Of a DNA stretch of 64,000 nucleotides, positions 210 through 12,802 are shown piece by piece. The position numbers and the translations under genes were made by a program. Position 1 is the first letter of the stretch, and the number at the start of each line of letters is the position of its first letter. Under the pieces are notes generated by a model, which saw nothing but the letters and a program-made list of their open reading frames with translations, made no database searches and was not told the origin of the DNA. Source of the stretch: Anoxybacillus amylolyticus (GTDB lineage: Bacteria; Bacillota; Bacilli; Bacillales; Anoxybacillaceae). Location: assembly GCF_001634285.1 (NCBI RefSeq), contig NZ_CP015438.1, positions 244,501-308,500 of the forward strand. The letters are read 5' to 3'.

Positions 210-523
210 GTTTTATCAGCTACGATGGGGTTCGGTATGGAGTACCCTGGATGTATAGCGGCCGGGATGTCGATGTGCGGGATCTCAACGGAAGGATTGA
301 GATCCTTGTAAACGGGGTTCCGATTGCCATACACAAGAAGGTGCAACGATCCCGAGCGGTTATCCTGTGTCCAGGCCAGTATACGGGTCTTACGACCGCA
401 AACGGACACGCCCATTCCCGTCCACAAGCCAGACAAATTGCAGCGGACGATGTGGAAATCCGTTCGCTGGATGTGTATGAACGACTCGTGGAGGTGGGAG
501 TGTCAACGCCGGATTTGTTTTGA
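210..523 (+). pseudogene. istA: IS21 IstA transposase, C-terminal fragment (element A)
   Basis: From 212 the frame reads FISYDGVRYGVPW and matches the C-terminal domain of the intact IstA at 1340-2566, which has FVSWDGVRYGVPW. The catalytic DDE part is missing because IS66 copy 1 cuts the gene at 209/210. The last genuine codons end at 500. Beyond that the frame runs into the terminus of element B and stops by chance at 523. Before that insertion the protein would have ended about one codon further on, with TGA overlapping the istB start. The fragment cannot act as a transposase. Confidence 0.88.
497..500. repeat. 4-bp target duplication GGAG, left copy
   Basis: GGAG directly precedes the TGTCAACG terminus of element B and is repeated at 2677-2680 after its other terminus. 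IS21-family elements make short duplications, often 4 bp. Confidence 0.85.
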
Positions 524-566
524 CCCGTTTCGCCGGGTTAGTTTTGACCCACCCAGCGACGTTGAA

Positions 567-2566
<2,000 letters not shown>

Positions 2567-2676
2567 TTGGATTTCCCCCTTCGACAACATTCGCACGTTA
2601 TCGATGGGAGATATTCAACGCAGGTGGGTCAATTTCATTCCGGCGTTACTGGGTCAATTTTAACCCGGCGGTCACA

Positions 2677-2680
2677 GGAG
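2677..2680. repeat. 4-bp target duplication GGAG, right copy
   Basis: This second copy of the duplication flanking element B also serves as the ribosome-binding core (GGAG, 1 base before the ATGATG) of the istB of element A. Confidence 0.85.
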
Positions 2681-2681
2681 C

Positions 2682-3455
2682 ATGATGGAATTGGACCAAG
2701 CGCGCCAGCGGCTACAAGAACTGGGCCTCGAACGAGCAGCTCATATGTTGGATGCAGAGCTGGAAACCGCAATTCATGCCCAAAGTCCCTACCTTACGTT
2801 TTTAAATCGGCTCTTGGATGTCGAAATCTCCGAACGACAAAGGCGGAATCTGGAAGTCAGGACCAAGCTGGCGCATCTTCCGTACCGAAAAACACTTGAT
2901 GAGTTTGACTTTTCCTTTCAGCCCAGTGTCGATGAACGTCTGATCCGTGAATTGGGTACCATGGCATTTGTGGCCCGACATGAAAACGTGTTGCTATTAG
3001 GCCCTCCCGGCGTCGGAAAAAGCCACTTGGCAGTGGCTCTCGCCATAAAAGCAATTGAACTTGGGATTTCCGTATACTTCGTAAGCCTGACCTATATGAT
3101 CGAAGATCTTCGAAAGGCTTATATGGAGAACCGTCTGAACAAGCGGTTGCGAATCTACACAAGACCCAAAATTCTTGTGATTGACGAAATCGGGTATCAT
3201 CCTCTTGATGAACTGGCAGCGAATCTCTTATTTCAGGTGATCTGTGCCCGATATGAACGTGGAAGCATTGTGTTGACCAGCAACAAAAGCATCAGTCAAT
3301 GGGGTGAACTGCTTGGAGACGAAGTCTTGGCAACTGCGGTCGTAGACCGCCTCCTCCATCATTCTCACGTTATCAACATACGAGGAAACAGCTATCGCTT
3401 GAAAGAACGCATGCGGACAGGAATTGATCCAAGCCTGAATGCAATGAAAAAATAA
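2682..3455 (+). CDS. istB: IstB, ATP-binding helper of IS21 element A
   Basis: 257 residues with Walker [10 protein letters not shown], Walker B ILVIDEIGY and LTSNKS. It is the downstream gene of element A, separated from its istA by the 2.2-kb insertion of element B, so any translational coupling is lost. It starts at ATGATG; in the reconstructed element the istA stop TGA overlaps this start. The ORF itself is intact, but its partner istA is destroyed, so element A cannot move without help in trans. Confidence 0.92.
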   Translation: MMELDQARQRLQELGLERAAHMLDAELETAIHAQSPYLTFLNRLLDVEISERQRRNLEVRTKLAHLPYRKTLDEFDFSFQPSVDERLIRELGTMAFVARHENVLLLGPPGVGKSHLAVALAIKAIELGISVYFVSLTYMIEDLRKAYMENRLNKRLRIYTRPKILVIDEIGYHPLDELAANLLFQVICARYERGSIVLTSNKSISQWGELLGDEVLATAVVDRLLHHSHVINIRGNSYRLKERMRTGIDPSLNAMKK

Positions 3456-3520
3456 AAAATCGCCGGGGTGGGTCAATTTTAAAACGGCCAAAATGGTTCA
3501 ATTATAATCCGGCCTTGACA

Positions 3521-3838
3521 CTAACGAATAAAATGAGTTGTCAAGGATCCTGCTATCACACCAATAATTACAGACAGAAGAAATGACTTAAATATCTTCA
3601 TGCAGATAGCAACTATAATCCCTGCAACTATAACGGGAAATGATAATGAGATTTTACCGTTTTTAATATAGAACAACTGAGACGCTACGAGTGCGGATAT
3701 TGCTCCAGCTGGAACATAGTTTAAATACATTTGTACTCTACTATTTACTTGTCTCCCAATTAACGCTTCAATTCCCGCAATTCGGCTAATGTATGTTAAA
3801 ATAGCCAATATTATTATTAATAACCAATTATTCCACAT
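3521..3838 (-). CDS. azlD: AzlD-family small subunit of an amino acid exporter
   Basis: 105 residues, nearly all in hydrophobic segments, with the family sequence TYISRIAGIEALIGR near the N-terminus. AzlD pairs with AzlC to form a branched-chain amino acid exporter, known in B. subtilis from azaleucine resistance. The start lies inside the end of azlC (11-base overlap), as is usual for this pair. The TAG stop abuts the end of IS21 element A at 3520, so the element inserted right behind the coding region without shortening the protein to an unusual length. Confidence 0.85.
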   Translation of the reverse strand: MWNNWLLIIILAILTYISRIAGIEALIGRQVNSRVQMYLNYVPAGAISALVASQLFYIKNGKISLSFPVIVAGIIVAICMKIFKSFLLSVIIGVIAGSLTTHFIR

Positions 3839-4550
3839 TGGACTTTCGACTCCTTAAATAGCATCCAACGAACGGAGAAATGAAACCTGCGAGTAAAATG
3901 ACATAAGGCGACCCAGGTACAAAAATTTCATTTGCAATTGTAATTATTGCTCCTGTAAGTGCTGTTGCTATAATAGGTTTATCTTTTATTATTTGAGAAA
4001 GAATCGCAACGAAAGTCATGGGAAAGGCCAAATCCAGGCCTAAATCTTGGGTATTGATATGTCCTCCTATAATTGCACCGATAAATGATGTAGCCACCCA
4101 AGTTAAGTAAAAAACAATAGTAATTATTCCAAAATACAATGGATCGGGGCCAAAAGATTGAAATCGAGCAGTTCCTAATACAAAAGGCTCATCCGATACT
4201 CCAAAAGCTAACAGCCATCTCCATTTTTTTGCCGTGCTAATTCCTGAAGCTAATGTTGCACCATATAACAAGTTTCGTAAATTTAGCAAAACTGCGGTTC
4301 CAATAATACTAACTAAACCAGCACCGGCAGTATGCATTGCAATCGATATCATTTGCACCGAACCTGAAAAAACCAACGCTGACATTGCGACTGTACCTAA
4401 TACACCGAATCCAGCATGAATACCAAGTACTCCATAAGGTATTCCATATGTAGCAATACCAATTGCAAGAGGGAACGCATCACGGATCCCCTGTCGTATC
4501 GTATTATGTAATAAGATATTTTTATTGATTACTAAGTCGTTGCTTTTCAT
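3828..4550 (-). CDS. azlC: AzlC-family exporter large subunit (branched-chain amino acid type)
   Basis: 240 residues and about seven or eight membrane segments. It contains the AzlC-type stretch AMSALVFSGSVQ and NLRNLLYGA, plus SDEPF further on. With AzlD it should export hydrophobic amino acids or analogues across the membrane. Its ATG overlaps the TGA of the preceding SagB-type gene (ATGA) with AGAGGAG just upstream, so the two are translated together. That arrangement suggests the exporter handles the product of, or something controlled with, the flavin enzyme upstream. The actual substrate is inference. Confidence 0.85.
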   Translation of the reverse strand: MKSNDLVINKNILLHNTIRQGIRDAFPLAIGIATYGIPYGVLGIHAGFGVLGTVAMSALVFSGSVQMISIAMHTAGAGLVSIIGTAVLLNLRNLLYGATLASGISTAKKWRWLLAFGVSDEPFVLGTARFQSFGPDPLYFGIITIVFYLTWVATSFIGAIIGGHINTQDLGLDLAFPMTFVAILSQIIKDKPIIATALTGAIITIANEIFVPGSPYVILLAGFISPFVGCYLRSRKSNVE

Positions 4551-5644
4551 TCAAAACTCCTCTTTCTTTGATTTTTACTATCTCTTAATGAAACATGTTC
4601 CAGGATTTTTTCATCAAAACTTTTATTTTCGCCAATTCCAGCTCCCACAAAAAACAATGTACTTTCGCTTACTCCATCAATTCCAAGAAATGAATCCACT
4701 TCTCTATCATGAAAAGCACCGGTTAGCCAAGACTGGTATCCTAAACTTGTTGCACAAAGTTGGAATGTTTGTGATACGTGCCCAATATCAAGTAACACAT
4801 TCCTATACGCACGAGAATGACGATATTTCCACCAAGCCTTATCAAATCTAGCAGTTATAAAAATTCCCACAGATAACCCACGAGCATAATATTGGTGATA
4901 CAGTAATTCAATTAGCCTATCCTCTGATATTTCTTCTGTAAGAAGTGTAAGTTTATGGTCCATACGATAATGGTAAACTCCTGGATTTAGTCCATCAACA
5001 CGAAGCGCTAATACATAAGCTTCTTCTGGATGTAATCCTCCTCCCGATGGACTTGATTTCCGTATCCCTGTTGTAAGAAGTCCGTTTTCATTTAAATCCG
5101 ACCAATCACCGTGAATTGGTCCAAACGTCATGTATAGCAACGTTGATAAAGTATTTAGTGGCATGACACCCCCATTAAATACGCGGGAGGTTTTTCTATC
5201 CTTTAACGTCGATAATAATGTCTTGTTATTAAAAAGCGAATAGTCAGGATCTGGTAAATCAATGATATGACCTTGACGCTTAGTGAATAAATCAGGTTGT
5301 TCATTAATAATAGATTCACAGTATTCTAGATATTCTTCTACCCATGTATCGTAATCTGGGTTTTCGACTTTAGTAATCGGTATATTTTGTGTTCCTTTAT
5401 GAAAAATATGAGAAAGTACATCCCATCCCCAATCATCAATAATTGGAGGTTCTAATTGAACTATATTTGCTTCAATCAAATCTTTATCGATTGAACTATC
5501 ATCGACTCTTTCACCATTATTCAATTCCAATAAACGTTTTACATATCTAGGTTCTAAAGCAAATTGTTGATGATTGAAATAGTCCCAAACAATTACTTCC
5601 CCGTTTCTAAATAACATAAAAATATATGGATTAATATAAGCCAT
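4547..5644 (-). CDS. SagB/ThcOx-type flavin dehydrogenase (nitroreductase fold)
   Basis: 365 residues from the ATG at 5644, chosen for AAGGAG 7 bases upstream; a longer frame to 5698 has no ribosome site. The N-terminal 140 or so residues resemble the winged-helix region of SagB proteins. The nitroreductase-fold half begins near SRVFNGG and carries the family signature SSPSGGGLHPEEAYVLAL and VLLDIGHVSQTFQL. SagB-type enzymes bind FMN and oxidise azolines to azoles in thiazole/oxazole peptide maturation. No cyclodehydratase (YcaO) or E1-like gene is in the window, so the substrate is unknown. It is co-transcribed with azlCD and preceded by a 21-codon peptide gene. Confidence 0.87.
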   Translation of the reverse strand: MAYINPYIFMLFRNGEVIVWDYFNHQQFALEPRYVKRLLELNNGERVDDSSIDKDLIEANIVQLEPPIIDDWGWDVLSHIFHKGTQNIPITKVENPDYDTWVEEYLEYCESIINEQPDLFTKRQGHIIDLPDPDYSLFNNKTLLSTLKDRKTSRVFNGGVMPLNTLSTLLYMTFGPIHGDWSDLNENGLLTTGIRKSSPSGGGLHPEEAYVLALRVDGLNPGVYHYRMDHKLTLLTEEISEDRLIELLYHQYYARGLSVGIFITARFDKAWWKYRHSRAYRNVLLDIGHVSQTFQLCATSLGYQSWLTGAFHDREVDSFLGIDGVSESTLFFVGAGIGENKSFDEKILEHVSLRDSKNQRKRSFE

Positions 5645-5685
5645 AATAAAACTCCTTATATATTTAGTTAATTCAATGAAATTTT

Positions 5686-5713
5686 GGTGGCATCTCAATA
5701 ATGGGATGCCACC
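5686..5713 (-). promoter_or_regulatory. Stem-loop between the small peptide gene and the SagB-type gene
   Basis: GGTGGCATC (5686-5694) pairs with GATGCCACC (5705-5713): a 9-bp perfect stem with a 10-base loop, starting 7 bases after the peptide's stop codon. No T-run follows on the minus strand, so it is not a standard terminator. It may be an mRNA-stability or attenuation element that keeps the peptide transcript more abundant than the enzyme message. Confidence 0.7.
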
Positions 5714-5720
5714 GTTTAAA

Positions 5721-5786
5721 TTACTTACGTACGATTACAGGGAGCAGAGCGCAGAAATTTTTGCTTTCAAGCTGAATTTTTTTCAC
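5721..5786 (-). CDS. 21-residue peptide (candidate RiPP precursor or leader peptide)
   Basis: A GTG start at 5786 sits 8 bases behind a perfect AGGAGG (AGGAGGGG), the best ribosome site in this area. The peptide begins MKKIQLESKNF and ends CALLPVIVRK, with TAA at 5721-5723. It lies 78 bases before the SagB-type gene in the same transcript, between a consensus promoter and a stem-loop. Two readings fit: a substrate of the flavin enzyme (one Cys, one Ser), or a regulatory leader peptide whose Leu-Leu-Pro-Val-Ile-Val codons sense branched-chain amino acids, the likely cargo of AzlCD. I know no homologue. That it is translated is well supported; its role is not. Confidence 0.65.
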   Translation of the reverse strand: MKKIQLESKNFCALLPVIVRK

Positions 5787-5927
5787 AACAATCCCCTCCT
5801 ATCTTTACAAAGATTAATCCGCGGACAACTATATTATATATATAATTTCACAATCATGGTACATTTTATAAGTAAAAATATTTCGACAATTTCCTCCATT
5901 AACGCTTTAGTGTGTTGATTGAGTTTG

Positions 5928-5956
5928 ATTATATTGGAAACAATTTATACAGTCAA
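5928..5956 (-). promoter_or_regulatory. Sigma-A promoter of the peptide–sagB–azlCD operon
   Basis: On the minus strand TTGACT (5951-5956), a 17-base spacer, then TATAAT (5928-5933). Start of transcription is expected near 5921, giving a leader of about 135 bases before the peptide gene. Confidence 0.8.
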
Positions 5957-6541
5957 TACAAATAAGAATAATCGGGTATGTACCATTAAAAACGGGTTAG
6001 ACTCTCTAGCCTGAAATATAATGTTTTTGATTGGATCCTGTTTCCTATGCTAACAAGCAATGTGGTTAAAGAAGTGATATGGGTGATTATCAGTACAAAC
6101 GTACATTTTTATCCATGACAAGCGCCTTTCTTTGGATCGATGTACATTATCCATATAATCCGTAAATGCACTATTCATATCACCACTCTCACCCATATAT
6201 GCATTACCCGGATCCATTTCCTATCATCAGGATTACTAACTACGAAAAACCATTTGCTTTCCTACCGGAACCCTGGCAGTATGCTGACAAAACACCCTCT
6301 ATCTCACATAGCAGAGGGAATTTGTCTGCAATCCTAGTGGGTAATAAAAAATAAGAGCCATTTATCTCTGGCTCTTAAAGTACGCTTATTATATGAATGG
6401 TCTTCTAAAGAAAAAGGGTCTTCTGAAGAAAAAACAGTTGTGTCCGTATAATTGTGTAAAATTCATCTTTTAAAAATAGAAGAGCCATTTCTATTTCTCC
6501 TCGGTTAGAATGTAGTTGACGAGACAACATTCGGAAAGGAG
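5957..6541. other. Mostly non-coding stretch between the sagB promoter and IS66
   Basis: No convincing gene. Two adjacent plus-strand reading frames, 6077-6163 (28 codons) and 6166-6354 (62 codons), share His/Tyr/Pro-rich wording (HYPYNP, HYSYHHSHPY) and may be one broken gene; the second has no ribosome site. A hairpin with AAGAGCCA (6353-6360) and TGGCTCTT (6369-6376) is followed by a T-rich tail only on the minus strand. An AAATAGAA/TTCTATTT repeat lies at 6474-6495. Confidence 0.5.
6353..6376 (-). terminator. Hairpin with a U-rich tail on the minus strand
   Basis: An 8-bp stem, AAGAGCCA with TGGCTCTT, and on the minus strand ATTTTTTATT follows. No minus-strand gene to its right survives; the IS66 element lies there now. 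Confidence 0.5.
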
Positions 6542-6566
6542 GTAAACGTCAAATAACCCCCACCTG
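6542..6566. repeat. IS66 left terminal inverted repeat
   Basis: It begins GTAAACGTCAAATAA and ends CCCACCTG; 22 of 25 positions match the inverted copy at 8991-9015. Confidence 0.85.
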
Positions 6567-6596
6567 TTGATCCGATGAGGGCTTCGATAAAATAGG

Positions 6597-8180
6597 TTAC
6601 GATTGAGTTGTTCGACATACAAGCGGTAACGTTGGAGACCAAGGCAGCAGATTGTCCAGCGCTTCCGTATCTTTTGGATCTGCAAGCTGCGGAAGCTGCT
6701 CAAACAGATACTTCAAGTATTGGAACGGATTCAGTCCGTTCTCTTTCGCGGTCTCAATCACGCTGTAGATCGTCGCGCTGGCCTGTGCTCCGCGAGGCGA
6801 GTTGGCAAACAGCCAGTTCTTTCGTCCAATCACAAATGGCTTGATCGACCTTTCGCTGCGGTTGTTGTCGATCTCCAGACGACCATCCTGCAGGAAAGCC
6901 GTCAGTTTGTCCCATTGGTTCAAGCTGTACGCAATCGCCTGTCCGAGCAGACTTTTTGGCAGCGTTCGGGGCCGTTGCTTTTGAAGCCATGCCAAATAGG
7001 CCTCCAAGATGGGCTTGCTTCGCTCCATTCGGACGGCATAGCGTTCTTCCGGCGACGCGTCCCTAAGCCCTCGCTCAATCGCAAAGAGCTGGTTGCAAAA
7101 CTCCAGTCCCTGTCGGGCCGCCGTTTCGGTTTTCGGTTGTCCGGCAGGCATCGCCTTCAGCGCCTCGTCGAACTTGCGGCGCGCATGCGCCCAGCATCCA
7201 ACGAGGGTCACGCCCTGCACCTTATGGTAACCGGAATACCCGTCAACGTGCAGGTAGCCGCGAAATCCCGAAAGAAAGTTTCGCGGATGCTCCCCGTTTC
7301 GCGTCGGCTTGTAGTCGTACAGGACGATCGGCGGGCCCATGCGCCCGGTCCGATACAGCCACAAGTACGATTGCGTCTCGGCTGATTTGCCCGGCTCGCG
7401 CAGCACCTGCAGCGTCGTCTCATCTGCATGCAGAATGTCCTGCTTCAGCAGATGCTCACGCATGCGATCCGTTAGCAGCGACAGCCACTCGGCGCCGTAC
7501 ATCATCCAGTTGGCCAACGTCTGCCGGGAAATCGAAAGTCCCAGACGGGAAAATTGCTGCTCCTGCCGGTACAGCGGCTGGCTGTCCACATACTTCTGTG
7601 TCATCACATACGCCATACTCGAAGGAGAAGCGAGGCTGCCCGGATAGATGGGATTTGGCATCGGGGCCGTTACGATCGGCGTACGGATCTCCTCGCGCTC
7701 GCAGCGGCGGCAAGCATATACCTTGCGCACATGCTGCACCACTTTCACCTGCGCTGGAATAATCGCAATTTCATGACGCGTCTCGGAGCTCATTTCATGA
7801 AGGGGGTTGCCACAGCACGAGCAGACCCGTTCGTCTTCGTTCAACTCATACGTCACCGTCTCCACTGGCAGATGGTCCAGTTTGGCTGTGCGTGGACCGG
7901 CTGGTTTCCGGCGCTCGTACGTAATTTTCTCCATGGGCGGCTCTTCGCCTTTCGGCGTGGCAAGGACTTCTGCTTCGTTGAACAGATCCAACTCCAACTG
8001 GTTCGGATCCGTCTTCTCGCTGGAGGCGCCGAAGCGCTTTTTTTGCGCGAGGCGGAACTGTTCTTCGTACCATTTGAGTTTGGCCGACAGTTCGGCAACC
8101 TGCTGTTCCAGCCTGGCAACCTGAGCCTCATATTCTTCCGTTGTAAGGGTAGGGGTGAGAGCGTTCGTTTTCTTTTCCAT
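6597..8180 (-). CDS. tnpC: IS66 transposase TnpC
   Basis: 527 residues, full length for the family. The order is an N-terminal leucine-zipper-like helix, a zinc-finger-type CSCCGN...CRRCE region (about residues 120-170), the DDE core with HADETT and HVDGYSGYH, and the C-terminal DNNRSERSIKPF box that supplies the catalytic Glu. It cuts and joins the element's ends, with TnpA and TnpB assisting. It sits 65 bases downstream of tnpB. The frame is intact. Confidence 0.96.
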   Translation of the reverse strand: MEKKTNALTPTLTTEEYEAQVARLEQQVAELSAKLKWYEEQFRLAQKKRFGASSEKTDPNQLELDLFNEAEVLATPKGEEPPMEKITYERRKPAGPRTAKLDHLPVETVTYELNEDERVCSCCGNPLHEMSSETRHEIAIIPAQVKVVQHVRKVYACRRCEREEIRTPIVTAPMPNPIYPGSLASPSSMAYVMTQKYVDSQPLYRQEQQFSRLGLSISRQTLANWMMYGAEWLSLLTDRMREHLLKQDILHADETTLQVLREPGKSAETQSYLWLYRTGRMGPPIVLYDYKPTRNGEHPRNFLSGFRGYLHVDGYSGYHKVQGVTLVGCWAHARRKFDEALKAMPAGQPKTETAARQGLEFCNQLFAIERGLRDASPEERYAVRMERSKPILEAYLAWLQKQRPRTLPKSLLGQAIAYSLNQWDKLTAFLQDGRLEIDNNRSERSIKPFVIGRKNWLFANSPRGAQASATIYSVIETAKENGLNPFQYLKYLFEQLPQLADPKDTEALDNLLPWSPTLPLVCRTTQS

Positions 8181-8245
8181 ACCGATTCATTTCTACACCG
8201 ATCCCCGGATTCCTTGTGGTCAATGGGCTGACAGGGTGAATTGTT

Positions 8246-8602
8246 TCAAATGACATACTTTGCCCGAACGGCAGGATGCGCCTGCTGTTGTTCCAGCGAC
8301 AGGCCGTCCAGTAGCCATCGTAATTCGCGGCCGCTCATCTCAAGCGGCCGTGCGGATGGAGCCATCGGCCACGGAAACCTCCCGCGCTCCAATCGGCGGT
8401 AGAAGAGCCAGAAGCCGTTGTGGTCCCAGAACAGAATCTTTACTTTGTCCCGTTGCCGGTTGCAGAAGACAAACAGCGCGGGAGAGAACGGATCCAGCTC
8501 GAATCCTTCCTGCACCAGGGCGGCCAACCCGTCGATCGATTTGCGGAGATCGGTGCTGCCGCAGGCAAGATAGACGCGGATCGAATTCGGAATGCTTAGC
8601 AT
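8246..8602 (-). CDS. tnpB: IS66 TnpB (Orf2)
   Basis: 118 residues with the IS66 Orf2 signature: GSTDLRKSIDGLAALV near the N-terminus, then FVFCNRQRDKVKILFWDHNG. It is needed for IS66 transposition, but its biochemical role is not settled. It overlaps the end of tnpA by 7 bases, which suggests translational coupling. Intact. Confidence 0.95.
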   Translation of the reverse strand: MLSIPNSIRVYLACGSTDLRKSIDGLAALVQEGFELDPFSPALFVFCNRQRDKVKILFWDHNGFWLFYRRLERGRFPWPMAPSARPLEMSGRELRWLLDGLSLEQQQAHPAVRAKYVI

Positions 8603-8928
8603 AAGGGCATCAAGGTCTGAACAACCTGACGGAGAAGTTGGGGATCAAAACCGTTTGCGACCTCGATGGATACCTGGCCGATCCGAATGACAACCCCTGG
8701 ATCCGGGTTCTGGTTTTCAGGGGAGGATGTCACGGTCACTGGTACCCAACCCATGGTAGAAGCATTTGTCCGACTCGAATCGGATAGCCGTTTCAAACGA
8801 TTCAGCCAATATTTCAATTGATGAATGGAAATGCCTTGCGCCTCGCACCATGCGGCCATCGTAAGTCCGCTGGTTCGGTACTCTTCCACGCGAGAAGTCC
8901 ATTCCCGGATCCGTTGCTCACGATCCAT
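8596..8928 (-). CDS. tnpA: IS66 TnpA (Orf1)
   Basis: 110 residues. The start at 8928 is chosen for AAAGGAGG about 9 bases upstream; a frame open to 8973 lacks such a site. The N-terminal part (REWTSRVEEYRTSGLTMAAWCEAQGI) is a helix-turn-helix of the type seen in IS66 Orf1 proteins. First gene of the element, overlapping tnpB. Its first third matches 1-122. Confidence 0.92.
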   Translation of the reverse strand: MDREQRIREWTSRVEEYRTSGLTMAAWCEAQGISIHQLKYWLNRLKRLSDSSRTNASTMGWVPVTVTSSPENQNPDPGVVIRIGQVSIEVANGFDPQLLRQVVQTLMPLC

Positions 8929-8990
8929 GAGATCTTGACCTCCTTTTTCATGTGCTTGAGGCCATTGTCTCATGAATGATGAATCGGATA

Positions 8991-9217: not shown

Positions 9218-9258
9218 CGTGGAAAAAATTGATTTCACATGAAATGGAGGGGTTTCTG

Positions 9259-10347
9259 ATGAAGAAATGTGCCATTGTTTATTGTGAAAATCAATTTGGC
9301 TCCATGGATGGAAAAACTGCCAATGGTTTAGTTCGCAATTCTGGGCTGTATGAGATTGCGGCGGTCATCGACAGCACGAAAGCCGGACAAGACGCAGGTG
9401 AAGTATTAGACAAAAAACGAAACGGCATCCCGATTTGCAAAGACCTTCAAGAAGCGATTACCTCTGCGAAAGAAAAAACGAACTACTTTATCCTTGGAAT
9501 TGCTCCCGCAAACGCTTTTCTCAAACAAGAAGAACGGCAAGTAGTAATAGATGCAATAGAAGCAGGAATGCATATTATTAATCCGCTACAAGAATTTTTG
9601 ACAGAAGATGAAGAAATCATGGCAATTGCTAAACGTTGCGACGTAGAAATTCGGGATATTCGCAAACCGCGGCCGAAAAAGGAATGGACGTTATTTACTG
9701 GCCGTATTTTGCAAGTAAAGGTGCCAGTCGTTGCTGTGCTAGGTACCGATGGAGCGTGCGGCAAACGGACGACTGCAATGATCGTGGACAAAGGGCTGCA
9801 AGCGCGCGGCTACCGCACGGCTTTTATTGCTACTGGACAAACAGGACTCATTCAAGGCGCTTCTTACGGTTTCGCCATGGACGCGTTTCCGCTCCAATAT
9901 ATGATTGGAGAATTGGAACGAGAAATTGTCCGAGCATACGAAACCGAGCAGCCGGACATTATTATCGTCGAAGGACAAGGAGCATTAAGCCATCCTGCGT
10001 ACGTCAGCTCATGTGGCATTTTAAAAGGAGCAAGGCCGCAGGCAGTAATTTTGCAACATCCGCCAAAGCGAAAAGTACTTGGCGATTTCCCGTTCATGAA
10101 AATGCCGTCCGTTCAAAGCGAAATCGAGTTGATTGAACATTTCGGACAAACAAAAGTCGTCGCAATTACGTTAAACCACGAAGGAATGACCGATGACGAA
10201 CTACAACAAACAATTATAGAATATGAACAAACGTTCCACATGCCAGTGACAGATGTTTTAAAAATGGGACCAGACAAAGTAATTGATCGTCTTATCGACT
10301 ACTTCCCGTCATTACAAAAGAAACGTTCGTCAGGGGTGGCCGTATGA
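9259..10347 (+). CDS. DUF1611 family protein, DgcN-like acyltransferase
   Basis: 362 residues. The start at 9259 is chosen for GGAGGGG 5 bases upstream. An N-terminal Rossmann-like part is followed by a P-loop NTPase-like half with GTDGACGKRTTA (about residues 160-172). The family was characterised in a marine bacterium as DgcN, which N-acetylates D-glutamate as the first step of its conversion to L-glutamate; transfer of that role here is inference. The downstream racemase starts inside this gene's stop codon (ATGA overlap), so the two work together, probably in the fate of a D- or unusual amino acid. Confidence 0.75.
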   Translation: MKKCAIVYCENQFGSMDGKTANGLVRNSGLYEIAAVIDSTKAGQDAGEVLDKKRNGIPICKDLQEAITSAKEKTNYFILGIAPANAFLKQEERQVVIDAIEAGMHIINPLQEFLTEDEEIMAIAKRCDVEIRDIRKPRPKKEWTLFTGRILQVKVPVVAVLGTDGACGKRTTAMIVDKGLQARGYRTAFIATGQTGLIQGASYGFAMDAFPLQYMIGELEREIVRAYETEQPDIIIVEGQGALSHPAYVSSCGILKGARPQAVILQHPPKRKVLGDFPFMKMPSVQSEIELIEHFGQTKVVAITLNHEGMTDDELQQTIIEYEQTFHMPVTDVLKMGPDKVIDRLIDYFPSLQKKRSSGVAV

Positions 10348-11450
10348 GAACAGTGCTCACTCCAAGGGTGGAAATTGACTTGCACAAAATTCTTCATAAT
10401 GCTAGCGTGCTAAAAAAATTATATGAAGAAAAAGGGATTCGAGTGACAGCGGTCGTCAAAGGAGTAGGCGCTAGTATCGAGATTGCGAAAACGCTTGTAG
10501 AGAGCGGGATTACGAGCTTAGCCGATACAAAAATTTCCCGCCTCCGACGATTAAAAACGGCGCGTTTGAATGCGACGCTCATGTTGCTAAGGACGCCAGC
10601 ATTAAGCGAAGTAGCGTCAGTCGTTCAAGTTGCCGACATTAGTATGAACACAGAACTAGACGTGATTCGTGCATTGGCAAACGAAGCAGTAAAGCAACAA
10701 AAGAAACATTCGATTATTTTAATGATCGAAATGGGTGACTTGCGCGAAGGGATTATGCCAGAAGATTTGCCAGCGGTTATCGAAGAAGTGTTAAAGTTAC
10801 CAAACATTCAGCTTGTCGGTCTTGGCACGAATTTCGCTTGCTTTGGCGGCGTGATTCCGACTGAGCAAAAAATGCGTGAATTTTCTTCGCTCGTTAAACA
10901 AGTCCAAAAGCAATTTTCGTTATTTCTCCCGTACGTTTCAGGAGGAAACTCTGCTAATTACTATTGGGTGAAACAAACAAAAGATGCCGGAATGGTAAAC
11001 CATATTCGCCTTGGCGAATCGATTTTTTTAGGGCGGGAAACAGTGAACGGCACCCCGATTCCCGAGCTATATCAAGATGCGTTTTGCTTAGTAGCGGAAG
11101 TGATTGAAGCAAAATCGAAGCCATCTGTTCCATTTGGGGAGCGAGGGCGAAACGCGTTTGGCGAATCGATTACGTTTGGCGACCGTGGACTTATCCGGCG
11201 TGCCATCGTTGGAATTGGGCGACAAGATGTCTTCGTTCCAGGGTTAACACCGGTATTGCCGATAGACATCCTTGGGGCAAGCAGCGACCATATTATTCTT
11301 GATACGAAAAATGTCGAGATAAAGATCGGGGATGAAGTAAAATTCACCCTCGATTACGGTGCGCTTATTTCGGTTATGACATCTCCTTATGTTTATAAAA
11401 AATATTTGCCTGAACGAAGCCACTATTCCAAAAGTCGAACGTCGGCATAA
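10344..11450 (+). CDS. Alanine/ornithine racemase-family PLP enzyme
   Basis: 368 residues, a fold-type III PLP enzyme. The Schiff-base lysine is in TAVVKGVGA (Lys39). A TIM-barrel N-terminal part is followed by a beta-domain. Relatives act on alanine, ornithine or other amino acids, and the residues visible do not decide the substrate. It overlaps the DUF1611 gene by 4 bases and is followed by a strong terminator, so the operon has two genes. It is not the housekeeping alr, judging by its divergent sequence and context. Confidence 0.78.
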   Translation: MRTVLTPRVEIDLHKILHNASVLKKLYEEKGIRVTAVVKGVGASIEIAKTLVESGITSLADTKISRLRRLKTARLNATLMLLRTPALSEVASVVQVADISMNTELDVIRALANEAVKQQKKHSIILMIEMGDLREGIMPEDLPAVIEEVLKLPNIQLVGLGTNFACFGGVIPTEQKMREFSSLVKQVQKQFSLFLPYVSGGNSANYYWVKQTKDAGMVNHIRLGESIFLGRETVNGTPIPELYQDAFCLVAEVIEAKSKPSVPFGERGRNAFGESITFGDRGLIRRAIVGIGRQDVFVPGLTPVLPIDILGASSDHIILDTKNVEIKIGDEVKFTLDYGALISVMTSPYVYKKYLPERSHYSKSRTSA

Positions 11451-11457
11451 GATAGGT

Positions 11458-11504
11458 ATCGCTTTTCTGCTTTAGGTGAATCGGAGGCAGAGAAGCGATT
11501 TTTG
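11458..11504 (+). terminator. Terminator of the DUF1611–racemase operon
   Basis: ATCGCTTTTCTGC (11458-11470) pairs with GCAGAGAAGCGAT (11487-11499), then TTTT. Confidence 0.85.
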
Positions 11505-11548
11505 TTGAAAATTAGTACGTAATAATAATACCTGGTAGTAAAAAAAGA

Positions 11549-11578
11549 TTGACAGGACAAGATGAGAGATGGTAGGAT
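11549..11578 (+). promoter_or_regulatory. Promoter of the fatty acid desaturase gene
   Basis: TTGACA (11549-11554), an 18-base spacer, TAGGAT (11573-11578). The untranslated leader is about 120 bases. Confidence 0.65.
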
Positions 11579-11704
11579 AAAGCATAAGTAATAATAACCG
11601 CATAAATGGTCTTTTCAGAATATTACGACTTATTTTGCGGTAAATGTGTAGTGCCTTTTGTTCATTTTCTCTGGCAGAAGGTTCAATTTGAAAGGAGTCG
11701 TTAA

Positions 11705-12802
11705 ATGAAAGAATTTCATTCGTTTGGCTGGTATGCGGCAAGAATTTCCCCGCATTTGCCAAAAAAAGCATTTCAACCCGTCCCTTCTCGTCTTTTCGGT
11801 GGTCTAGCGTATTTTCTCATCGCGTTGAGCGGTATCCTCGCTATTTCTTTACTTGATCTTCATCCAATATGGAAGACGCTTATTTCTGTTGTATTAGGTT
11901 TTAGTTTTGCTGCTTTAGGGTTTTTGGGGCATGAAATTTTGCACGGTACCGTCGTGCGAACGCCGTGGTTGCGCGATTTCCTTGGCGCCGTTGCTTTTTG
12001 GCCGCTATGTACCGGACCAAAACTATGGAGAAAGTGGCATAATGTCACACACCACGCTCATACACAAGACGAGGAGAAAGACCCTGACGCATGGCCTGCA
12101 GTTGAAAAGTTAGCAAAAAGTCGTTTATTGCGCTGGGTGTATAACATTCCGTTTACGATTCGGGCATTTTTTGCCTTTAGCTCGTTAGCGATTACGTTTA
12201 CCCTTCATTCGACGAGAATGCTGTTTTATTTTCTTAAAGATTTTCAACCGAGAAATCGCAGTATTGTGTTCTTTCAGTTTTTGTTGCCTTGGGCAACATG
12301 GATCGGCTTATTGTTTGTTGTAGGATTTGCTAATTGGTTCTTTATCTTTTTATTGCCGCTATTGATTGCCAATTTTATCGTCATGAGCTATATTTCGACG
12401 AACCATCGCTTAAATCCATTAGTGCCCGTGAACGATCCGCTTGCCAATAGCTTATCGGTCACCGTGCCAAAGTGGGTCGATGTGCTCCATTTTAACTTTT
12501 CATACCATACCGAGCACCATCTATTTCCGAGCATGAGTTCAAAATATTACCCACTGGTAAAAGAACATATTAAGAAAATGTGGCCAGATCGTTATCATGA
12601 AATGCCGATGATTCAAGCGTTACGGGCGCTCTGGAAAACACCAAGACTGTATTATCAACAGACTGAACTAATTGAACCGCGCCAAGGAAACGTATACGGT
12701 TCTTTAGGATACGGGCTAGACCCTTCGCACATCGAATATCGCAAAATGGAGAACAAAAAACAAGTCCTTACGAAAAAAGTAGCTGGACAATTGAAAAAGT
12801 AA
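11705..12802 (+). CDS. Membrane fatty acid desaturase
   Basis: 365 residues with several membrane segments. Three histidine boxes bind the di-iron centre: GHEILHG (about 75-81), WHNVTHHAH (about 111-119) and YHTEHHLFP near 270. It introduces a double bond in acyl chains of membrane lipids and is usually induced by cold. AAAGGAG precedes the ATG. Single gene between a promoter and a terminator. No DesK/DesR two-component genes are adjacent. The position of the double bond cannot be told from sequence. Confidence 0.85.
   Translation: MKEFHSFGWYAARISPHLPKKAFQPVPSRLFGGLAYFLIALSGILAISLLDLHPIWKTLISVVLGFSFAALGFLGHEILHGTVVRTPWLRDFLGAVAFWPLCTGPKLWRKWHNVTHHAHTQDEEKDPDAWPAVEKLAKSRLLRWVYNIPFTIRAFFAFSSLAITFTLHSTRMLFYFLKDFQPRNRSIVFFQFLLPWATWIGLLFVVGFANWFFIFLLPLLIANFIVMSYISTNHRLNPLVPVNDPLANSLSVTVPKWVDVLHFNFSYHTEHHLFPSMSSKYYPLVKEHIKKMWPDRYHEMPMIQALRALWKTPRLYYQQTELIEPRQGNVYGSLGYGLDPSHIEYRKMENKKQVLTKKVAGQLKK

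Follow-up and report, generated by a model that had tools for sequence, protein, structure and literature searches.

Introduction

What does a 21-codon open reading frame (ORF) do when it is followed, in the same operon, by a stand-alone SagB-type flavin dehydrogenase and a two-subunit AzlCD exporter? This question is raised by the minus strand of a 64,000-nucleotide stretch of the Anoxybacillus amylolyticus genome (contig NZ_CP015438.1, positions 244,501 to 308,500), referred to below as the window. SagB enzymes are best known for the step following a YcaO cyclodehydratase, and an earlier note on this DNA had read the locus as a minimal peptide- or amino-acid-modifying system with its own export. 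Our computations are in line with that reading. We consider it likely that this is a small operon for a ribosomally synthesized and post-translationally modified peptide (RiPP), in which SagB would act independently of YcaO, guided by a RiPP recognition element (RRE), on a very short precursor. The conservation of the peptide, an RRE-like domain modelled in SagB and the match between peptide type and partner enzyme all point in this direction.

A short peptide gene precedes sagB in most related loci

The putative precursor gene (5786..5721, minus strand, as for all the features of the operon) begins with GTG and encodes MKKIQLESKNFCALLPVIVRK. As had been claimed, it possesses a perfect ribosome binding site, AGGAGG (5800..5795), read directly 8 nt ahead of the start codon. 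Relatives of the SagB protein were collected by a protein search (399 relatives, of which the best 120 were listed) and by a scan of named genomes that confirmed 202, the best 80 of which (loci L016 to L095) were analysed and the other 122 left out. A motif ORF was defined as an ORF of 15 to 60 codons starting with M..[IV].[LFI]E at most 300 bases upstream of SagB; this pattern was set after viewing the ORFs of these loci, and its occurrences in the rest of their DNA served as the control. Such an ORF was found in 66 of the 80 loci, the near-identical copy of a Neobacillus contig being counted among them, compared to 18 occurrences in the 1,936,406 strand-bases of remaining DNA, equivalent to 0.003 per 310 bases. 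The conservation upstream of SagB homologues that the earlier note had proposed to look for is therefore observed, as is a conserved precursor gene beside a modifying enzyme, as expected of a RiPP locus. A Shine-Dalgarno word (AGGA, GGAG or GAGG within 18 nt) precedes 65 of the 66 motif ORFs, and all start with ATG except one, which starts with GTG. The peptides are 20 to 33 residues long, apart from one of 54 residues (L027) in which the leader-plus-core unit occurs twice within a single ORF. Comparison of seven peptides with Pfam and NCBIfam gave no match except one of E=0.097 for this 54-residue tandem; the window's own peptide matched neither database.

M1 and E7 are invariant in 21 representative peptides, and two large types can be distinguished by their other fixed residues. 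The AurF-type peptides (46 loci, 39 distinct DNA sequences) all share I4, L6, E7, A12 and N13, with proportions of synonymous (pS) and nonsynonymous (pN) differences of 0.323 and 0.137, respectively. The SNDAY-type peptides (16 loci) all share E7, L10, S11, Q13 and S14-N15-D16-A17-Y18, and their first 21 codons gave a pS of 0.846, which is saturated, and a pN of 0.209. The peptide is thus under purifying selection in both large types. Taken together, these results show that the 21-residue peptide is real and that its conservation goes beyond chance, and they lend good support to its pairing with the enzyme.

The peptide type matches the partner enzyme

The genes that accompany SagB differ with the type of core. 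Cores containing AN[LW] are associated with an AurF-like protein and a major facilitator superfamily (MFS) protein in 46 of 46 loci (44 Pseudomonas and 2 Cupriavidus), and SNDAY cores with a carbamoyltransferase in 16 of 16 loci and an MFS protein in 15, the contig of the remaining one (L039) ending there. Core type and tailoring enzyme match in 62 of the 62 loci of the two large types, although these are mostly from Pseudomonas and Burkholderiales, so that the loci are related and the counts are not independent events. Eight partner proteins were profile-scanned; the families were called by Pfam, the NCBIfam models for AurF, NodU and Bcr/CflA matching below their cut-offs. This match between core and enzyme offers a direct way to trace the modified residues. 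Four further motif loci have other cores, and carry AzlCD (L016), a Vut_1 protein (L034) or another MFS protein (L045 and L060).

Another variant of the cluster was seen in L021 (7116-9675), where SagB is followed by a 447-aa protein for which Pfam and NCBIfam gave no match and by an ATP-grasp protein.

SagB probably carries a peptide-docking domain

The SagB protein of the window (5644..4547, 365 aa; ribosome binding site AAGGAG at 5652..5657, read directly) scored 122 bits with the NCBIfam SagB domain TIGR03605 (cut-off 78.4) and 52 bits with Pfam Nitroreductase (cut-off 23.5), which agrees with its description as a SagB-type dehydrogenase. The top-scoring NCBIfam model was TIGR04511 SagB_rel_DH_2 (162 bits, residues 124-338); membership of that family was rejected, this score being below its 240-bit cut-off. 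The pair K273-Y274 (4823..4828) is invariant in 31 of 31 chosen sequences and aligns with the Lys-Tyr pairs of ThcOx and BmdC; the corresponding pair is catalytic in McbC.

In a structure model, the N-terminal part of SagB (residues 1-66; 5447..5644) resembles an RRE and the remainder an oxidase of the ThcOx/McbC type. The best structural matches of the N-terminal domain are RRE-bearing RiPP proteins, every score being modest. The match to ThcOx, whose N-terminal part is an RRE, spans model residues 1-340 and includes that part. The N-terminus of SagB is thus probably an RRE, as judged from the model. When 28 SagB N-termini were compared with Pfam and NCBIfam, nothing credible was obtained and no RRE family was matched.

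After the window's own SagB, the two best matches of the protein search are of metagenomic origin, at 64% and 62% identity; one from Caedibacter reaches 50%. The hosts of the best 80 are Neobacillus fumarioli, Alphaproteobacteria (most of them presumably intracellular), a few metagenome-assembled genomes, Burkholderiales, Yersinia, Photorhabdus and many Pseudomonas. In an order-level search, 10 of 397 genomes matched at E<=1e-20 and, except for the window's genome and the Neobacillus copy, these matches were 29-36% identical. No copy besides that of the window's genome was found in 398 genomes of the class at 1e-45 or in 398 of the phylum at 1e-50. The plasmid collection yielded 82 records with SagB relatives, all below 60% identity (25-36% among the matches listed), and no near DNA match to the operon; 44 pattern matches in viral contigs included no relative.

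Additional SagB-like genes were noticed during these searches. In the window's genome, a 65-kb contig (C3:12001-23000, L097) holds two SagB-like ORFs of 363 and 358 aa; by eye, it also contains a third of only 277 aa and a membrane protein of 392 aa, and transposase-type ORFs are interspersed. Paired adjacent SagB-like genes with open frames of 401 and 397 aa were seen in G291 (loci L006 and L015) and G122 (loci L007 and L014), both genomes belonging to another genus within the window's family.

YcaO is absent from the operon and azole formation is not the common reaction

The absence of a nearby YcaO, already remarked upon in the earlier note, holds: neither the ORFs nor a whole-genome search revealed one in the operon, and the single YcaO that this search did find is encoded on a different contig (C2:26945-27925). 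There, on a 258-kb contig (C2:19001-34000, L098), a 439-aa YcaO stands beside a 567-aa SagB-like ORF and further ORFs; this region is probably a separate azole-peptide cluster. Among 20 genomes chosen from those of the 80 loci, most of them draft records of unstated completeness, YcaO was present in 11 and none was found in 9 (L026, L030, L040 and L047 of the SNDAY type, L055 and L069 of the AurF type, and L016, L034 and L045). A single YcaO query, a weak test, gave no tblastn match at E<=1 in the 80 loci.

The cores themselves bear on the reaction. Seven of the 46 AurF-type peptides (three sequences) contain no Cys, Ser or Thr after E7; azoline oxidation is therefore not the common reaction, and azole formation was rejected in that role. 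S8 and C12 are present in the core of the window's peptide. Of the features expected of thiazole/oxazole-modified microcins (TOMM) or linear azol(in)e-containing peptides (LAP), a YcaO encoded with SagB was not found, and a core with Cys, Ser or Thr is not general in the class. The assignment of the enzyme to the azole-forming dehydrogenases thus stands for the SagB family and its Lys-Tyr pair, and is unlikely to extend to azole formation by the class. The simplest alternative, suggested by the analogy of cyclodipeptide oxidases, would be that the core is desaturated directly or undergoes some other two-electron oxidation.

AzlCD is a local partner of SagB

AzlC (4550..3828, 240 aa, the large subunit of an exporter of the amino-acid type) and AzlD (3838..3521, 105 aa, the small subunit) both score above their Pfam cut-offs and are encoded by adjacent genes, as in AzlCD exporters, and sagB overlaps azlC by the ATGA previously described as a coupling. 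The earlier note had asked whether the peptide always occurs with azlCD. It does not: with tblastn, azlC and azlD lie beside SagB in one of the 80 loci, the Neobacillus contig (L016), the other 79 giving no match to azlC or azlD, and the two large types carry an MFS protein instead. The partnership with AzlCD is local and does not extend across the class. All 6331 bases of the Neobacillus contig correspond to window positions 210-6540 at 99.97% identity and, because this identity extends across the whole contig, the copy is by its sequence a recent transfer or a contamination. The window's genome and the Neobacillus genome each gave one match to the istA-type ORF.

One independent case was found. 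At E<=1e-50, 2 of 41 genomes of the same family matched this SagB, one of them with a broken copy. The latter, in the one-contig genome of another genus (G398), is a SagB remnant 75% identical over residues 194-359, with internal stops and no N-terminal part found, followed by AzlC (62% identity) and AzlD (56%). That SagB, azlC and azlD stand together, in diverged form, in a second genus suggests an old pairing with AzlCD. Since the operon AzlC shares 62% identity with its counterpart next to the remnant and only 32% and 24% with the other AzlC proteins of G398 and G347, it seems to form a separate subfamily; no second AzlC was found in the window's genome.

Layout and surroundings of the operon

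The order of the operon is promoter, 21-codon ORF, hairpin, sagB, azlC and azlD. The consensus promoter of the earlier note corresponds to TTGACT-17-TATAAT (5956..5928), the best promoter match of the region, near-consensus with 11 of 12 positions; this is a consensus match only, and the region shows no overall enrichment of promoter-like sites (9 found versus 13.9 expected). A long untranslated leader separates it from the peptide ORF. The stem-loop reported after the peptide gene was recovered at 5714..5685 (fold z -4.1) and is scored as terminator-like for the plus strand only, because the coding strand has no T run. Across the motif loci, the gap between peptide gene and sagB folds at z<=-2 in 38 of 66 cases compared to 2 of 66 random 80-base pieces, a comparison based on mononucleotide shuffles and on random pieces of largely coding DNA. 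When six gaps were compared with dinucleotide shuffles, five reached z values of -2.1 to -5.2, and L034 showed no such fold.

The operon is flanked by transposase- or helper-type ORFs at 567..3455, which we take to be IS21-like istA/istB, and by transposase-type ORFs at 6597..8973 (minus strand), presumably IS66-like, all from the ORF list. The operon block is AT-rich (30-38% GC in windows 3601 to 6600) and sits between these GC-richer ORFs (51-58% GC), which suggests that it is acquired DNA. Beside the flanking transposase-type genes, positions 9229-12802 hold ORFs of 372, 368 and 365 aa that we take, by eye, to be DUF1611-like, alanine-racemase-like and desaturase-like.

Discussion

In the mechanism that we propose, the 21-residue peptide would be a precursor with MKKIQLE as leader and NFCALLPVIVRK, or part of it, as core. 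The N-terminal RRE of SagB would dock the leader as an extra beta strand, and the flavin mononucleotide (FMN) oxidase domain would dehydrogenate the core. Since no cyclodehydratase would take part, it appears likelier that the core is desaturated directly, or oxidised in some other way, than that an azoline is oxidised to an azole. A housekeeping protease would release a small product, to be exported by AzlCD, and the hairpin after the peptide gene may allow the precursor to be made in excess over the enzyme. Relatives would use the same precursor-plus-SagB unit together with an AurF-like diiron protein or a carbamoyltransferase and an MFS exporter. That the product is small is suggested by the small-molecule exporters, none of the eight partner proteins scanned being an exporter of the peptidase type.

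The ORF might instead be the leader peptide of an attenuator, whose ALLPVIV run and hairpin would sense branched-chain amino acids and control the exporter operon. The core is indeed rich in Leu, Val and Ile, a hairpin lies 3' of the ORF and the operon terminates in azlCD. Conservation, however, falls on the charged start M..I.LE, and SNDAY cores occupy the same position although they are poor in branched-chain residues. In addition, the core type tracks the tailoring enzyme and no T run follows the hairpin on the coding strand; we therefore regard attenuation as very unlikely. An ordinary azole pathway of the TOMM/LAP type, with a YcaO acting in trans, seems to us most improbable. The window's genome does hold a YcaO on C2, near another SagB-like match, its core has one Cys and one Ser, and the enzyme retains the Lys-Tyr pair of azoline oxidases, but the nine genomes in which YcaO was not found, mostly drafts, and the AurF-type cores devoid of Cys, Ser and Thr speak against it. 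Finally, the peptide could be a carrier or scaffold on which an amino-acid-like small molecule is built, its own residues not being part of the product, as in pearlins. The short precursors and the exporters (AzlCD, a Bcr/CflA-like MFS protein just below the NCBIfam cut-off, other MFS proteins and Vut_1) would suit such a role, but no aminoacyl-tRNA-dependent ligase was found among the eight partner proteins scanned, and A12-N13 and S14-N15-D16-A17-Y18 are strictly kept in their respective types, as would be expected of substrate residues, so that a scaffold is unlikely.

Some observations weigh against a RiPP operon. Considered alone, the window's own operon excludes an attenuator less well than the class does. 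Moreover, 14 of the 80 loci, 13 of them alphaproteobacterial (we count L044 here) and the exception being L021, have no upstream motif ORF. The earlier note had named homologous loci without the peptide as grounds for refutation, and this applies in part: L021 has an off-motif peptide, MKKVVKEITESVLDTRCIAIIKK, in the same position, two loci have a candidate immediately downstream of SagB (L029, also L109, with a Shine-Dalgarno word; L023, also L106, without one), and in the other 11 no convincing peptide was found beside SagB, whereas the motif ORF is present in 66.

Extra SagB copies of the same Caedibacter genomes, outside the 80, have downstream peptide candidates in L110 and L113. In L115 (Caedibacter sp. 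38-128, which also contains L018), tandem similar ORFs, MKKISKYSQNPVQPMRMCFISLCNLDLVI and MKKLNVFRQHSICPIRMCLVTLCIPNDK, lie upstream of a divergent SagB. Candidatus Odyssella thessalonicensis carries four SagB copies of this clade (L020, L022, L024 and L028), one with an internal stop, and none with a convincing adjacent peptide.

The proposed RiPP system resembles the azoline dehydrogenases ThcOx, SagB and McbC in its SagB-type oxidase domain and invariant Lys-Tyr pair, but differs from TOMM/LAP systems in its operon without YcaO, its very short precursors and its cores without Cys, Ser or Thr in some loci. Pyrroloquinoline quinone (PQQ), mycofactocin and pearlins are likewise small products for which a short ribosomal peptide serves as source or scaffold; unlike in those pathways, no radical S-adenosylmethionine (SAM) protein or LanB-like peptide aminoacyl-tRNA ligase (PEARL) was found among the eight partner proteins scanned, the loci not having been scanned in full. 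A precedent for SagB without its usual partners is cluster OS3 of Pseudomonas sp. Os17, for which the authors found no sagA, sagC or sagD homologue; in the parts of the source consulted, it is set apart, by description only, by an 85-aa structured precursor, GNAT and HEXXH proteins and a 650-aa SagB-type protein (PMC7726476). The gvg clusters for 4-formylaminooxyvinylglycine (FVG) in Pseudomonas contain a carbamoyltransferase and transporters, and two of their required genes are small ORFs, according to the portions consulted (PMC8064604, PMC8067088). Unlike the loci described here, and by description only, the main text on FVG does not contain the word 'nitroreductase' ('SagB' was not searched there), and a direct relationship was rejected as unsupported by that description, as far as consulted (PMC8064604). 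The consulted parts of PMC10880069 and PMC13060819 describe no tiny-peptide SagB system, and no description of such a family was found in the open-licence PMC literature among the matches listed, in keeping with the earlier note, which knew no described example.

The same peptide start recurs in distant bacteria, in related operons with different partner enzymes, and this points to a family of natural products derived from peptides that has been little described. More tentatively, and with rather more doubt than confidence, one may imagine a widespread YcaO-independent family whose founding step is the dehydrogenation of unactivated residues, in precursors of about 20-33 aa, by an RRE-fused SagB alone, the lineages adding N-oxygenation, O-carbamoylation or only an exporter to yield amino-acid-sized antimetabolites that leave through AzlCD or MFS proteins. 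The SagB clade tied here to tiny peptides, with no YcaO next to it, extends over Bacillales, Burkholderiales, Pseudomonas, Yersinia, Photorhabdus and certain intracellular Alphaproteobacteria. Should the RiPP reading be right, this would be a set of clusters with precursors short enough for gene finders to miss, and with a flavin chemistry on peptides that is necessarily distinct from azole formation.
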